Shown here one piece after another: positions 9,893 to 38,698 of a stretch of DNA of 47,525 nucleotides. The stretch spans positions 1-47,525 of the forward strand of contig JANLFN010000018.1 of NCBI GenBank assembly GCA_024655885.1, written 5' to 3'. The DNA comes from Eubacteriales bacterium (GTDB lineage Bacteria; Bacillota; Clostridia; Acetivibrionales; JANLFN01). Each line of letters opens with the position of its first letter. Within the stretch, counting starts at the first letter, position 1. The notes beneath the pieces are model-generated. The model was given only the letters and a program-made list of their open reading frames with translations. It ran no database searches and had not been told where the DNA came from. Position numbers and translations under genes: made by a program.

Positions 9893-11701
9893 ATGGCGGG
9901 ACCAAAGAACAAGACACTTCCTAAGCGGGAAGAAATAAGCGGAGGATATAAGTGGAAGCTGGAGGATATTTACAGCAGCAATGACCGGTGGGAAGAAGAT
10001 TTTTCTCAAGTGAAGGCGCTTTCGGGGAAAATAATCCGGTTCAAGGACCATCTGGCCGAAAGTGCCGGAACCCTGCTGGAATGCTTAAAGGAGAAAGATG
10101 AACTGCTGGCGCTCAATGACAAGGTTTTTGTCTATGCCAGGATGCGAAGGGATGAGAATAATGGGGATCCCGTATACCAGGCCCTTACCGACCGCGCCAT
10201 GGCCTTAAGCACCGAAGCCTATGCCGCCGTTTCCTTTATTGTCCCCGAAATCCTGAGAATCCCTGAAGATACCCTGCGGGATTATATGGAGGGCAGTGAT
10301 GCCCTGAAGCCGTATAAGCAGTTTATGGATGAGATCCTGAGGCAGAAGCAGCATATCCTTTCCGAAAGGGAAGAGGAGCTGCTGGCTTTAGCGGCCGAGG
10401 TAGCCCAGGCCCCCCACGATATTTTCACCATATTCAATAACGCGGATATTAAGTTTCCCTTTATAAAGGATGAGAGCGGGGAAGAAATCGAAGTCACAAA
10501 GGGCCGGTATATCAAGCTTCTTGAAAGCAAGGACAGAAGGGTACGCCAGGATGCATTCCACGCCCTATACAGTTCCTACCATGCACACAGGAATACACTT
10601 GCATCCATGCTGATCAACAATATAAAGAAAAACAGGTTTTTTGCCAGTGTGCGGAAGTATGGATCCAGCCTGGAAGCCTCCCTGGATTCAGATAACATAT
10701 CTACCGGCGTTTATGATAATTTGATTGACACCGTGAATAAAAACCTGCACCTTTTGCACCGGTACCTGGAGCTGCGCAAAAGGGCATTGAAGGTGGATCG
10801 GCTCCATATGTACGACCTGTATGTGCCGCTGGTTGAAGAGCCGAAAACGGATATCCCCTATAGAGAAGCGCTGGCGATGGTGGAGGATGGGCTCAAGCCC
10901 TTGGGGGACGAATATCTAGGCTACCTGAGACAGGGGTTCAACTCGGGCTGGATTGATGTATACGAAAATGAAGGGAAAACCAGCGGAGCATACTCATGGG
11001 GCACTTATAAGACCCATCCCTATGTGCTGCTGAATTACCAGGGAACAATCAACGATGTGTTTACCATAGCCCATGAGATGGGGCATGCGCTGCACTCTTT
11101 TTACACAAACAAGACCCAGCCCTATATTTATTCCGAATACAAAATTTTTGTGGCGGAAGTGGCCTCCACGGTAAACGAATCGCTGTTAATGAGGCATTTG
11201 TTGAATAGCACTTCGGACAAAGGCGAAAAGGCCTATCTGCTGAACCATTATCTGGAGGAATTCCGGAGCACCGTTTTCAGGCAGGTGATGTTCGCAGAGT
11301 TTGAAAAAATAACCCACTCATGGATGGAACAGGGCCAGGCTCTCACGGCACAATCCCTGAACGGCATTTACCGGGAACTGAACCAGAAGTACTTCGGCAA
11401 CCGGGTGGTTGTGGATGAGGATATAGACATAGAATGGGCGAGGATTCCCCACTTCTATACAAGCTTTTATGTCTACAAGTATGCCACCGGCTTTTCGGCG
11501 GCAACCTCCCTTTCCCGGCAGATTCTGGATGAAGGCGGGACGGCTGTGAACCGGTATTTGGAATTTCTGCGCAGCGGGAGCTCCGACTATCCCCTTGAGC
11601 TTTTGAAGAGAGCCGGAGTGGACCTTTACACGCCAAAGCCCGTACAGGATGCGTTCAATGTGTTTGAGGAAATATTAAACGAATTGGAGGGATTGATTTG
11701 A
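9893..11701 (+). CDS. pepF: Oligoendopeptidase F (M3B)
   Basis: 602-aa cytoplasmic zinc metallopeptidase that degrades oligopeptides of roughly 7 to 17 residues. The active site H-E-M-G-H (394-398) and the downstream acidic ligand in E-V-A-S-T-V-N-E (near 422) are present, as is the M3B N-terminal helical domain (A-G-T-L-L-E-C-L and the E-E-E-L-L-A-L-A region). Length is normal. ATG 9893 follows GGAGGGAAAAG. Its stop overlaps the TTG start of the M29 aminopeptidase by 4 bases (TTGA), so the two form an operon that turns peptides into amino acids. Confidence 0.95.
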   Translation: MAGPKNKTLPKREEISGGYKWKLEDIYSSNDRWEEDFSQVKALSGKIIRFKDHLAESAGTLLECLKEKDELLALNDKVFVYARMRRDENNGDPVYQALTDRAMALSTEAYAAVSFIVPEILRIPEDTLRDYMEGSDALKPYKQFMDEILRQKQHILSEREEELLALAAEVAQAPHDIFTIFNNADIKFPFIKDESGEEIEVTKGRYIKLLESKDRRVRQDAFHALYSSYHAHRNTLASMLINNIKKNRFFASVRKYGSSLEASLDSDNISTGVYDNLIDTVNKNLHLLHRYLELRKRALKVDRLHMYDLYVPLVEEPKTDIPYREALAMVEDGLKPLGDEYLGYLRQGFNSGWIDVYENEGKTSGAYSWGTYKTHPYVLLNYQGTINDVFTIAHEMGHALHSFYTNKTQPYIYSEYKIFVAEVASTVNESLLMRHLLNSTSDKGEKAYLLNHYLEEFRSTVFRQVMFAEFEKITHSWMEQGQALTAQSLNGIYRELNQKYFGNRVVVDEDIDIEWARIPHFYTSFYVYKYATGFSAATSLSRQILDEGGTAVNRYLEFLRSGSSDYPLELLKRAGVDLYTPKPVQDAFNVFEEILNELEGLI

Positions 11702-18296: not shown

Positions 18297-19505
18297 TCAA
18301 TTGACTGTATCAGGCTTCCCTTTATGAACTTTATAAAAAAGAAACATCATGGCGGCGGCCAGCAGAGCTGTTGAGGCGCCGAAATAGAAGGGAGCGCTGT
18401 AATTTACCCTGTCGTAAAGGATGCCTGCAATAAGGCTTGCCGGAAGCAATGTAATTCCGAGAACCGCATTATATATGCCCAGGCCCGTTCCTCTTTTATC
18501 TCTGTGGATCAGGTCGGAGACCAGGGCCTTTTGTACTCCGTCCGTCAGGGCGCTGTATAACCCGTAGAGGGCAAACAGCAGTATAATAACCGCTTTTACA
18601 TTGGATCTGCCGAATCCGAAATACACTGCGGAATATAAAAGGTAGCCCAGGATGATCAGACGTTCGCGCCCGATTTTATCGGACAGCGTGCCCATGGGAA
18701 CGGCGAATAAAACCGAAACCGAGTTGTATATCAGGTATACCAGGGGGATATAAAGTGCGTTGATCCCAATGTCGTTTGCTTTAACCAGCAACAGTGCGTC
18801 TGTAGAATTGCCAAGGGTAAATATAAAAGTGATAAACAAAAAGATGTAGTACCTGCTTGAAAAATCCTTTAGGACAATCTTTCCAGGCAAGCTTTCCTTT
18901 TCTATTTTAGCTTCTTTGATGAAAAATATAATGGTTATTACACCTGCGAAGGCGGGTATGGCAGATATAAGGAATATCTTCCTGTATTCACTGGGAAAAA
19001 CCATTAAAATACAATAGGCAAGGAGAGGTCCCGCAATAGCGCCGCAGTTGTCCATTGCCTTATGGAAGCCGAAATTTTTGCCTGATTTTTTCTGCTTTGA
19101 CGAACCGGCGATCAAACTGTCTCTCGGGGCTGTCCTTATACCTTTTCCCACTCTTTCTATAAACCGGAGGTACAGTATTTGCAGGGGCACTCCCGCCAGT
19201 GAGTACAGGGGCGCAATAATTGTAGTAATGGCGTAGCCGATAACCATAAACGGCTTGTTTTTGCCTATTTTATCGCTCCACCAGCCGGATAATGCCTTGA
19301 GTACCGAGGCCGTGCTTTCCGCTATGCCCTCGATAAGGGAGAGATCCGTTTTGGTGGCCCCTATGGATAAGAGAAAAAGAGGCATAATGCAGTAGATCAT
19401 TTTCGTTGTGGTATCTGTTAAGAAGCTGGTCAGACCGGAAAAAAAAACGTTTCTTTCCAGACCGGCGATTTTTTTCCCCTGGCTGGCATCGTTTTGTTCA
19501 GTCAT
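18297..19505 (-). CDS. MFS transporter
   Basis: 402-aa major facilitator with 12 predicted helices. Typical marks are G-W-W-S-D-K-I-G-K-N-K-P (loop 2-3), R-F-I-E-R-V-G-K-G-I-R-T-A-P-R-D-S-L-I-A (helix 4 and after) and G-T-L-S-D-K-I-G-R-E-R (loop 8-9). The R-x-G-K-G-x-R-T-A-P-R-D motif is common in a subgroup of bacterial MFS efflux proteins. ATG at 19505 is preceded by AGGGGG and is preferred over the ORF start at 19553. It lies 19 bases behind the ChrB-like gene, as its operon partner, so export of the compound or ion that gene responds to is the likely job. The substrate is not known. Confidence 0.88.
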   Translation of the reverse strand: MTEQNDASQGKKIAGLERNVFFSGLTSFLTDTTTKMIYCIMPLFLLSIGATKTDLSLIEGIAESTASVLKALSGWWSDKIGKNKPFMVIGYAITTIIAPLYSLAGVPLQILYLRFIERVGKGIRTAPRDSLIAGSSKQKKSGKNFGFHKAMDNCGAIAGPLLAYCILMVFPSEYRKIFLISAIPAFAGVITIIFFIKEAKIEKESLPGKIVLKDFSSRYYIFLFITFIFTLGNSTDALLLVKANDIGINALYIPLVYLIYNSVSVLFAVPMGTLSDKIGRERLIILGYLLYSAVYFGFGRSNVKAVIILLFALYGLYSALTDGVQKALVSDLIHRDKRGTGLGIYNAVLGITLLPASLIAGILYDRVNYSAPFYFGASTALLAAAMMFLFYKVHKGKPDTVN

Positions 19506-19524
19506 GTGATTTCCCCCTGAAAAT

Positions 19525-20070
19525 TTATAGTGAGTGACCCAATATAAACTCATATACCGTATTACTGAAATCCTCCAGCAGCTTTTTGCATTTATCCAGG
19601 CTTTCTTTAGCAGCTTTTCCCAGGGAAGCCTTAAAAAGATCCCTGGATTCTATCTTGCGGTACCATAATAAGAGCTTATCCAGCTCTTCCTCATTTTCCT
19701 CCACCTCTGCGAAAGAAAAGTTTTTCCTTGCGGTTTCCTTTTCAATTTCTGCGAAAAAATCCCCGCACTTTTCTATAAGCTCCTTATACTCTTCGTCACG
19801 TGCCCTGTTAAAATATGAGATCGCCCTCTCCTCGTCCTTTTCATCCAGAAAAACCGATTGCATCAAAAATGCCTCTCCGCTGTTTTTCCGTATATCCTGT
19901 GAAACTGAAGCCAGGGCGGAGCAGTTGTCGTCGCTGTACGGCAGTATCCACATGGACTGCTGGGTATTGACTGCACCCAGTTTTTTCAGGTTTCTCCATG
20001 TGGCCACCCGGATTCTTGACGGCTCTGTGGGAAGGTTATAGTTAATGACCAGCCATTTTTTCTGTTCCAT
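19525..20070 (-). CDS. ChrB N-terminal-domain-like protein
   Basis: 181 aa, matching the N-terminal domain of ChrB proteins: W-L-V-I-N-Y-N-L-P-T-E-P-S-R-I-R-V-A-T-W-R-x-L-K-K-L-G-A-V. ChrB proteins regulate or assist chromate resistance, but similar domains occur in other stress operons. The rest is charged and helical, ending in a coiled-coil-like segment. It leads an operon with an MFS transporter 19 bases downstream. AAGGTGAAGAA precedes the ATG. No chrA gene is present, so chromate is not established. The promoter has two identical operator-like palindromes, and this protein is a candidate to bind them. Confidence 0.8.
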   Translation of the reverse strand: MEQKKWLVINYNLPTEPSRIRVATWRNLKKLGAVNTQQSMWILPYSDDNCSALASVSQDIRKNSGEAFLMQSVFLDEKDEERAISYFNRARDEEYKELIEKCGDFFAEIEKETARKNFSFAEVEENEEELDKLLLWYRKIESRDLFKASLGKAAKESLDKCKKLLEDFSNTVYEFILGHSL

Positions 20071-20085
20071 TTCTTCACCTTAAAA

Positions 20086-20135
20086 TGTAATATCCGTTAC
20101 AATATTATTATAACATAATGTAATATCCGTTACAA
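20086..20135 (-). promoter_or_regulatory. Promoter with two identical operator copies
   Basis: Minus-strand promoter: TTGTAA (20130-20135), 17 bases, TATAAT (20107-20112). The 16-bp sequence TGTAATATCCGTTACA occurs twice, exactly, at 20086-20101 and 20119-20134, 33 bp apart (about three helical turns) and with 5-bp TGTAA/TTACA inverted ends. One copy overlaps the -35 box, the other the transcription start region. This is a classic repressor layout for the ChrB-like/MFS operon. Confidence 0.8.
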
Positions 20136-20293
20136 TAAAAATTTTTGTTTTCAGCAGATAAAAAGGAATTTTTATGGTGCATGTAGAATATAGGTGGGAC
20201 GGAAAAATGTAAAAACCATGGTTTGAGTTTATTTAGAATTGAGGATAACGCACTTTTTTAAAGAGAGATGTCTGTATCGGATGTGATCTGTCT

Positions 20294-21037
20294 ATGAAAA
20301 TAATTTTTAGAGCAGGCGCCATGCTTCTCGTTACACTGCCTTTACTCTTTTTTTGTTCCTGCGGCGATGTACGGGAAACTATGCCCGGGAATGGGCCGGA
20401 AAGGGCGGCAAACCAGAGTGAACAGTTTAAGCCGCCTGCGGGCGAAAGCCCGGCTGCCGGGCCGGTGCAGCCGGCTTCTGAAGGCGGTGGCAGCGAGTCC
20501 GGCGTTAATAAAATTCCGGCAAAAGCCCCGGACCCCCAACAGGTGGAAGAGGCTGAAAAGCTCTATGACCAGGGATTCCAGGCCTATATGGAGTGGAAGC
20601 TGGATGAGGCGGTGCAGCTTTTTGACAGGGCTGCAAAGCTGGACCCCGGGTGCTATAAGGCCTATAACGGCAAGGGAATTGTGCTCTGCTACAAGAAGAA
20701 TTACAGGGAGGGCATGAGCCTGATTTCAAAAGCCCTGGAAATGAAACCGGATTTTGTCTATGCAAATTTCAACATGGCCCTGGCCTACAAGCTGCAAAAG
20801 GACTACAAGCAGGCGCTGGTGTGGTTTGACAGGGCGCTGTCCTACGACCCCAGGGACACCTGGAGCTATTTTGGAATAGCCTGCATCTATGCGGAGTGGA
20901 AGGAGGCGGACAAGGCCCTGGAATACCTGAAAAAAGCCATAGAAACCGACCCCGGGGTTAAGGATGTGGCAAAAAGGGAGAAGGACCTTGACCCCATCAG
21001 AAATGACCCGCGGTTTGTGCAGCTGGTAGAAAACTGA
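20294..21037 (+). CDS. TPR-repeat lipoprotein
   Basis: 247-aa exported protein: signal peptide with a hydrophobic core (8-20) and lipid-attachment Cys at 21 or 23 (F-F-C-S-C), a disordered Pro/Gly/Ser/Glu-rich linker (25-80), then about four TPR units (about 84-220; e.g. A-Y-N-G-K-G-I-V-L-C-Y-K-K and N-F-N-M-A-L-A-Y-K-L-Q-K-D-Y-K-Q-A-L). TPRs form protein-protein scaffolds; this one sits on the outer face of the membrane. Partner unknown. No clear ribosome binding site is visible before the ATG. Its last codons overlap the opposite-strand frame at 20997. Confidence 0.85.
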   Translation: MKIIFRAGAMLLVTLPLLFFCSCGDVRETMPGNGPERAANQSEQFKPPAGESPAAGPVQPASEGGGSESGVNKIPAKAPDPQQVEEAEKLYDQGFQAYMEWKLDEAVQLFDRAAKLDPGCYKAYNGKGIVLCYKKNYREGMSLISKALEMKPDFVYANFNMALAYKLQKDYKQALVWFDRALSYDPRDTWSYFGIACIYAEWKEADKALEYLKKAIETDPGVKDVAKREKDLDPIRNDPRFVQLVEN

Positions 21038-31192: not shown

Positions 31193-31374
31193 TGTTGCTG
31201 AGCTATACAGCTGAATCCTCTCGAAAGCAAGAGAGGTACGGAGGAACCAAAACGATGGGGTTAATCCAAATCGGAAGCGGGACGCTGTCTATCCGGCAGC
31301 CAACTTCCGGGATGGTAGGGGTGATCCTATTACCCGAACCCGGCAGCTAACTTCGGAAGCTGAAAATAGGAGGT
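31193..31374 (+). promoter_or_regulatory. ydaO-yuaA c-di-AMP riboswitch
   Basis: Conserved ydaO blocks in order: TTGCTGAGCTATACAGCTGAATCC, GAGGTACGGAGGAACC, GGGGTTAATCC, a variable hairpin, GGTAGGGGTGATCC, CCCGAACCCGGCAGCTAACTTC and GGAAGC. The aptamer ends about 5 bases before the gene's start, after a ribosome binding site (AATAGGAGG) near its 3' end. In this class, c-di-AMP usually turns off genes for wall hydrolases and potassium or osmolyte uptake. The gene here is an SH3-NlpC/P60 hydrolase, a standard ydaO target. Confidence 0.93.
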
Positions 31375-31378
31375 TAGG

Positions 31379-38429: not shown

Positions 38430-38698
38430 GGTCGTGCTAGACGGGGAGGTAGCGGTGCCCTATACCTGCAATCCGCTATAGCGGGGTTGAATTCCTATTA
38501 TAGGCTTTATTCCTGTAGGGTCAGCCCTTCGCAAGTGACAATGAAAACCGGGTCTTACGCAACGGAACCCTGTGAACCCCGTCAGGTTCGGAAGAAAGCA
38601 GCGGTAAGCAGGCACTTTCGTGTGCCGTAGGGTTGCCTGGTTAGAGTTAACTGCGGAGGTTACGCTTGTAGGAGTAAGTCAACGATAGGTGCACGGCC
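38430..38698 (+). ncRNA. ffs: Large signal recognition particle RNA
   Basis: About 269 nt, the size of the Bacillus/Clostridia SRP RNA with Alu domain. Terminal helix GGTCGTGC (38430-38437) / GCACGGCC (38691-38698). The S-domain carries the universal segment CGTCAGGTTCGGAAGAAAGCAGC with its GGAA-type loop that binds Ffh. The middle holds the long helix 5 halves (GGGTCAGCCCTTCG ... CCGTAGGGTTGCCTGG). In related genomes it stands beside tadA and dnaX; here dnaX is 1.9 kb downstream and tadA 33 kb upstream. Confidence 0.95.

Follow-up and report, generated by a model that had tools for sequence, protein, structure and literature searches.

The window analysed here, a stretch of 47,525 nucleotides from an Eubacteriales bacterium (contig JANLFN010000018.1 of assembly GCA_024655885.1), contains two identical 16-bp inverted repeats over the predicted promoter of a short chrB-like gene and of the major facilitator superfamily (MFS) transporter gene that follows it. 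On the opposite side of the intergenic region, a gene for a tetratricopeptide repeat protein starts at 20294 on the plus strand. The features of the locus are as follows:

20119..20134, minus strand: putative operator copy 1, which reads TGTAACGGATATTACA on the coding strand and covers the -35 hexamer and spacer
20086..20101, minus strand: putative operator copy 2, identical to copy 1, covering the transcription start predicted from the location of the -10
20107..20135, minus strand: sigma-70-type promoter, with -35 TTGTAA at 20135-20130, 17 bp, and a TG-extended -10 TATAAT at 20112-20107; consensus match only
19525..20070, minus strand: short ChrB gene, 181 aa, with a ChrB_N domain (PF20229) and no ChrB_C match; proposed autorepressor
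18297..19553, minus strand: MFS transporter gene, encoding 418 aa if read from the first ATG; it overlaps the end of the ChrB_N gene and is the proposed target

A first-pass annotation of this DNA had described a 16-mer present twice without mismatch, one copy over the -35 element and the other at the start site, in front of an operon led by a ChrB-like gene, with an MFS gene and no chrA. Our reading of the locus agrees on each of these points. The sequence TGTAATATCCGTTACA is found at 20086-20101, where transcription is expected to start, and at 20119-20134, which covers the -35 hexamer. The starts of the copies are 33 bp apart, and their perfect identity spans 21 bp (20084-20104 and 20117-20137). 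The gene after that for ChrB_N encodes an MFS protein and not ChrA; the absence of chrA is true of the operon, as a two-gene chrA sits elsewhere in the genome, on contig C36. No motif within two mismatches occurs in the 3 kb fetched around that chrA pair.

The 16-mer is a dyad, TGTAA-N6-TTACA, which can be reoriented as TGTAAC-N4-GTTACA, each window copy having one mismatch to the 12 fixed letters. Scanning the window for it with up to three mismatches gave four matches against 0.28 expected, a number reached in none of 100 shuffles. Only a single place in the 47.5 kb has an exact 16-mer recurring within 60 bp, and when the 224-bp intergenic region was shuffled 20,000 times with dinucleotides preserved, just one shuffle contained any repeated 16-mer. 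The promoter scan returned TTGTAA-17-TATAAT on the minus strand (20135-20107), with TG before the second hexamer and 10 of 12 matches; by itself this match is weak, since the intergenic region holds four promoter-like sites and shuffles predict 2.3. The first-pass annotation had also proposed a genome scan, with many unrelated copies as the outcome that would speak against operators. In the whole genome (3.44 Mb), the window's two copies are the only exact ones, and the next best match has one mismatch.

We collected homologues of the short ChrB protein from relatives of the window's genome (ChrB_N in 3 of 100 genomes, its own included), from 36 loci in named genomes (most of them labelled Bacillota, Nitrospirae/Thermodesulfovibrio or Deltaproteobacteria), from a sample of the window's phylum (ChrB_N in 49 of 398 genomes; 30 loci used, one of them the window's own) and from plasmids (149 short and full-length records in two listings, from which 20 regions were picked by hand). 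The motif was then counted from -250 to +30 of 73 dereplicated short genes, meaning those with ChrB_N only, with the reversed pattern as a control; seven near-identical loci were merged, and L105 and L109, further copies of an mcr-5 cassette, were omitted. Across several phyla, TGTAAC-N4-GTTACA was exact at 17 of these genes, present with at most one mismatch at 39 and with at most two at 46, while the control gave 0, 0 and 2, respectively. A site with up to two mismatches lies directly upstream of 15 of the 37 genes from relatives and named genomes, 19 of the 23 from the phylum sample and 12 of the 13 from plasmids. Our first count, limited to the 200 bp before 38 genes and ending at the start codon, had found a site (at most one mismatch) at 8 of the 38 and none for the control; the wider interval was adopted because this count missed sites overlapping the start codon in Nitrospirota-type loci. 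When 36 whole loci (L012-L047) were scanned, 38 sites with at most one mismatch fell in 25 of them, against 0 for the control. Several Nitrospirota-type loci with no site at chrB_N (L020, L029 and L036 among them) have one at the head of the cluster that runs from a PHO4-type gene to chrB_N; PHO4 was confirmed by Pfam in L014 and L039.

Pairs of sites are frequent. Relatives with two sites, each with at most two mismatches, space them by 16, 17, 18, 22, 24, 28-30, 36, 37 or 45 bp, and twin sites with differing inner letters recur in distant relatives. The copies had initially been described as lying 33 bp apart on the helical repeat: the distance stands and corresponds to 3.14 turns, but strict phasing is ruled out by spacings that range from 16 to 45 bp among relatives. 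A layout like that of the window is seen in L072, where one site covers the -35/spacer and the second follows the -10, and in L103 and L110 TTGACA is followed directly by the site, which serves as the spacer. Because the dyad is conserved upstream of the same gene family, the proposal of twin operators over the promoter is supported.

Which protein reads these sites had been left between the ChrB-like protein and an unlinked TetR or MarR regulator. Among 20 whole genomes with a ChrB_N gene, 17 have the exact motif, and 22 of their 25 exact sites lie inside the fetched ChrB_N loci, which favours the ChrB-like protein; off these loci there are three exact sites, versus five for the reversed control. 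The choice of these 20 genomes among 38 loci was guided in part by sites already observed, so a selection effect applies to the count at ChrB_N loci, but not to the scarcity of sites elsewhere. The three off-locus sites precede an Exo_endo_phos-like gene (below the Pfam cut-off) and an MFS gene whose product shares 45% identity with the window's (L122), a PHO4-type gene that adjoins a Usp-type gene (L123; named by the similarity of the first residues to L013), and another MFS gene, 28% identical (L124). In the phylum sample, at least 8 of the 14 sites listed for genomes with ChrB_N fall within 250 bp of a ChrB_N match, one of which (G149) is partial; near-site counts from these listings are lower bounds.

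The 181-aa protein matches ChrB_N at 150.8 bits (cut-off 23). Pfam found no ChrB_C (PF09828) in it, whereas both full-length ChrB proteins scanned (L117, L120) have this domain, and the only further match was to PaaX_M (PF20803), at 24 bits with a cut-off of 24. Its predicted structure (pLDDT 93.6) runs strand-helix-strand-strand-helix-strand over residues 6-72, followed by long helices at 77-114, 120-143 and 151-180, which we read as a Cas2-like domain joined to a three-helix bundle. Structure comparison aligned the first part with Cas2 chains (Z up to 8.9), and also returned Rv0674 (3kfw; 148 residues, Z 8.9) and PaaX of E. coli W (8a39; 170 residues, Z 7.8, rmsd 6.7). Scores of this size are middling; the top Z values of the comparison went to unrelated three-helix bundles, which match the helical part. 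Foldseek gave nothing below E 0.001, and the best hit of a sequence search for a solved relative had an E of 0.057. The structure comparison listed no solved ChrB or helix-turn-helix family, which says nothing by itself. The model contains no winged helix: it begins with a strand at 6-12 and a helix at 18-31. PaaX, which may share the Cas2-like domain, has an N-terminal winged helix-turn-helix; the aligned part of 8a39 starts at residue 106, and the window model lacks a counterpart of what precedes it.

The first helix of the model carries R21, W25 and R26, and both arginines are invariant in an alignment of 37 sequences (A1, which omits L023, a near-copy of L021, and L034, which has an internal stop) and in another of 10 that includes full-length ChrB (A2). 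Among the closest known systems is ChrB of Ochrobactrum tritici TnOtChr, described in PMC3817168. Like the window protein, it heads its operon; it binds and silences its own promoter when chromate is absent, it is found mainly as dimers on crosslinking, and replacing Arg18 or Arg23 (R18A, R23A) makes expression constitutive (PMC3817168). R21 and R26 have the same five-residue spacing and, judged by this and by their position, would correspond to R18 and R23. The two systems differ in that the window protein has no ChrB_C and is joined to an MFS gene rather than chrA, and in their operators, an imperfect GTAGAT...ATCTAC repeat in O. tritici (PMC3817168) and TGTAAC-N4-GTTACA here. A separate feature of the short proteins is an acidic-rich segment at residues 118-129 (FSFAEVEENEEE). 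All short proteins of A1 have F118, F120, A121, E122, E124, E125 and E127-E129 in this segment, whereas the five full-length ChrB sequences of A2 do not conserve them; it is a possible candidate for a ligand or metal site.

Taken together, these data make it probable that the twin dyads are operators of the short ChrB_N protein acting as an autorepressor. We infer DNA binding, dimerisation and repression by ChrB_N, as well as export by the MFS protein. ChrB_N dimers would contact the DNA through the Cas2-like domain that carries R21 and R26, and would occupy the -35/spacer and the start site, excluding RNA polymerase. The protein would thus repress both its own gene and the MFS gene, and a toxic-ion signal would release it so that the exporter is made. 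This would provide a defined DNA code for a widespread gene family that is annotated as chromate resistance even though its short members lack ChrB_C, and it suggests a mode of DNA binding without a helix-turn-helix.

Several observations weigh against this proposal. No site with up to two mismatches lies directly upstream of 27 of the 73 short genes; some of these have one at the head of the operon, and others, such as L018, L034 and L044, have none anywhere in the locus. The motif by itself is not specific, as most phylum genomes with an exact site lack ChrB_N (70 of 398 have one: 16 among the 49 carriers of ChrB_N and 54 among the 349 other genomes). In G120 and G269, sites precede an apparent ABC operon and a membrane-protein gene (named by eye) with no obvious fluoride link. 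Close MFS relatives in L167, L172 and L173 (63-73% identical) have neither an adjacent ChrB_N gene nor a site with up to two mismatches in the 700 bp upstream. G295 and G320, each a complete genome of one contig, have sites before an MFS gene whose product is 71-72% identical to the window's, and no ChrB_N was found in them by family or profile. An O. tritici ChrB truncated to the N-terminal part had no regulatory activity, so either the short proteins work in their own way or this counts against the model; the full protein still bound its promoter with the repeat mutated (PMC3817168). Finally, we found no binding or expression data for a short ChrB_N protein in this analysis.

As to the signal, the best-studied bacterial sensor of fluoride is an RNA, and this RNA recurs near short ChrB_N genes. 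Rfam identified the fluoride riboswitch (RF01734) in 15 of 81 short-ChrB_N loci, with 18 riboswitches in total, far exceeding the roughly 0.3 loci expected; the 81 loci were not dereplicated, L105 was omitted, and the riboswitches of G111:C107, which are below the gathering score, were left uncounted. By scanned batch, the loci with a riboswitch were 9 of 17, 3 of 13, 2 of 20, 0 of 15 and 1 of 14, plus 0 of 2 mcr-5 cassettes; among full-length ChrB loci there were 0 of 5. L043 and L045 have a riboswitch between chrB_N and a following MFS gene, whose product is 39-40% identical to the window's. The MFS gene behind the off-locus operator of L122 has a riboswitch on either side, at 1437 and 7370, and a third follows at 10231; the cluster also holds CLC and CrcB genes and an enolase gene (the latter named by its first residues). 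Within the phylum, two riboswitches flank chrB_N and an MFS gene in L160, one of them scoring 34.1 bits against a cut-off of 34. In L161 and L162, riboswitches are located about 6 to 8 kb from chrB_N; these three loci were fetched because a riboswitch was already known on the same contig.

The association extends to the transporter. A search of the 398 phylum genomes with at most four candidates scored per genome gave 77 MFS matches in 71 of them, counting the window's own. At least 7 of the 77 are no more than 5 kb away from a fluoride riboswitch (which in one case scores below the gathering threshold), far more than the approximately 0.2 expected; this expectation, like that for the loci, is a hand estimate from riboswitch densities. 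In L205, L206 and L208, as in L043 and L045, the MFS gene is downstream of the riboswitch on the same strand; in L208 it follows crcB, and the RNA is below the gathering score. The window differs from these operons in having dyads of the protein-operator type and no riboswitch. Two (L141, L153) of 30 riboswitch loci that were chosen without regard to MFS genes hold an MFS relative, 41-43% identical. In the phylum sample, RF01734 is present in 34 of the 49 genomes with ChrB_N and 122 of the 349 others (odds ratio 4.2, Fisher p 5e-6, kinship ignored).

The case for fluoride has counterevidence of its own. The Rfam scan found no fluoride riboswitch in the window at the gathering score, and the genome's own clear riboswitch precedes two crcB genes elsewhere, on C41. 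None of seven Bacillota loci, the window's phylum included, has one near ChrB_N (L010-L012, L024, L032, L033, L038), and it was seen in 1 of 29 ChrB_N loci of the phylum sample, whose flanks were only 1.5 kb. A scan of 19 MFS loci found no riboswitch, the one hit in that scan being L141, known before. Riboswitch neighbours are thus scarce within the window's phylum, and the association is strongest outside it. We therefore regard fluoride, or the ionic stress that accompanies it, as the leading candidate for the signal, tentatively and by association only. A more far-reaching and rather doubtful proposal is that short ChrB_N proteins form a family of repressors without a helix-turn-helix that read TGTAAC-N4-GTTACA and leave the DNA in response to fluoride or a metal-fluoride complex. 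They would then do as proteins what the fluoride riboswitch does as RNA, riboswitch and repressor having been swapped before related MFS exporters across lineages. If the signal were fluoride, an acknowledged gap would be filled: according to a 2024 review (PMC11139923), riboswitches control only about 15% of Flucs and 30% of fluoride CLCs, and other, unknown regulatory mechanisms exist. In open-access literature, which leaves subscription journals mostly outside, no paper linking ChrB with fluoride regulation was among the matches listed, and the sections available of PMC6429828 mention neither ChrB nor chromate.

The same operator and repressor could respond instead to a divalent metal or to general ion imbalance, a possibility that we hold open at much the same tentative level; it competes for the signal only and is compatible with autorepression by ChrB_N. 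Neighbouring genes include a Na/Ca exchanger, a P-type cation ATPase, a PHO4 phosphate transporter, and CDF and TMEM165/GDT1 transporters, and an operator-bearing MFS gene stands beside genes for Nramp and a member of the iron-dependent repressor family. The conserved acidic run FAEVEENEEE might bind a metal. However, the RNA that recurs as a neighbour is the fluoride riboswitch, and MFS relatives are found in operons led by it.

Under another, unlikely scenario, the sites are read by an unlinked regulator (TetR, MarR or other), and ChrB_N is merely regulated and has a different role. The sites kept upstream of MFS without a detectable ChrB_N in G295 and G320 speak for it. No helix-turn-helix is evident in the predicted fold, and, among the fetched plasmid loci, ChrB_N adjoins a TetR gene in one (L115) and a gene for a heavy-metal-responsive regulator in another (L116). 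Yet exact sites in genomes with ChrB_N are mostly at its locus, an association that holds across phyla. Moreover, G369, the third sampled member of the genus of G295 and G320, has both ChrB_N and sites, and the second sites of the latter two are degenerate, with three mismatches in G295 and two in G320; loss of the regulator with decaying sites is therefore possible in these two genomes.

A classical chromate switch, in which ChrB senses chromate and the MFS protein exports it, is very improbable. The window protein does have the ChrB_N domain, and O. tritici ChrB makes its own promoter chromate inducible, but the residues needed for that response (R180, R187 and H229) are placed in the C-terminal part (PMC3817168), and the window protein lacks ChrB_C. 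The operon has no chrA, and the genome's chrA pair has no motif around it. All five full-length ChrB genes examined lack the operator, the best match having three mismatches (L120); four of them are followed by a chromate transporter gene, and the stretch shown for L118 has a transposase gene next, not chrA. The chromate name is thus probably misleading for short ChrB_N. The region upstream of the full-length ChrB gene of P. aeruginosa (L117:1838-1997) has an inverted repeat, GTAGAGA...TCTCTAC, ending at the start codon; it resembles the O. tritici repeat (PMC3817168) and is possibly an operator of the full-length branch.

That the repeat is a recent tandem duplication with no regulatory function, as its 21 bp of identity without a mismatch might suggest, is scarcely credible given that the dyad itself is conserved and that distant relatives have twin sites with different inner letters.

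The same short ChrB_N family heads the mobile mcr-5 cassette. In the mcr-5.1 cassette (Tn6452-type), a 180-aa ChrB_N-only protein, 41% identical to the window's and likewise without ChrB_C, has a single diverged site (L102, 1447-1462, two mismatches) upstream of its gene (1500-2042). Unlike in the window, a lipid A transferase gene follows. The mcr-5 operon includes an MFS gene (PMC9462459), and its ChrB is described as a chromate (chromium efflux) regulator in the excerpts available of PMC9462459 and PMC13373230.

Beyond ChrB_N loci, close MFS relatives in L168, L169, L171 and L196 (5622-8814) have operator-like sites and no adjacent ChrB_N, and stand beside an Nramp transporter; L196 also has an iron-dependent-repressor-family gene, and two of the three genomes of such MFS relatives lack a detectable ChrB_N. 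Two related genomes have a pair of sites 31 bp apart and one exact site (L212:6537-6583 and 2360-2375; L213), which precede an apparent operon for an ABC transporter and an apparent gene for a membrane protein, a few kilobases away from ChrB_N. Sites in PMC545781 were considered as the same motif and rejected: those of nickel transporters have a gap of 13-14 bp, and the tabulated ones belong to a different regulator.

No wider regulon is visible in the window's own genome, where TGTAAY-N4-GTTACA at one mismatch gave 41 rows and its reversed control 66. A one-mismatch copy on C35 falls inside an open frame, and a match on C25 precedes an integrase-like frame (named by eye). On C24 (G000:C24:6075-6119; L129:1576-1620), TGTAATTAATATTACA and a poorer near match, 29 bp apart, stand just before the start of a 516-aa open frame at the contig end; this pair is possibly due to chance, as the region is AT-rich. 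Other RNAs in the window are a c-di-GMP-I riboswitch (2365-2452), a c-di-AMP riboswitch (31199-31376) and a large SRP RNA (38432-38696).
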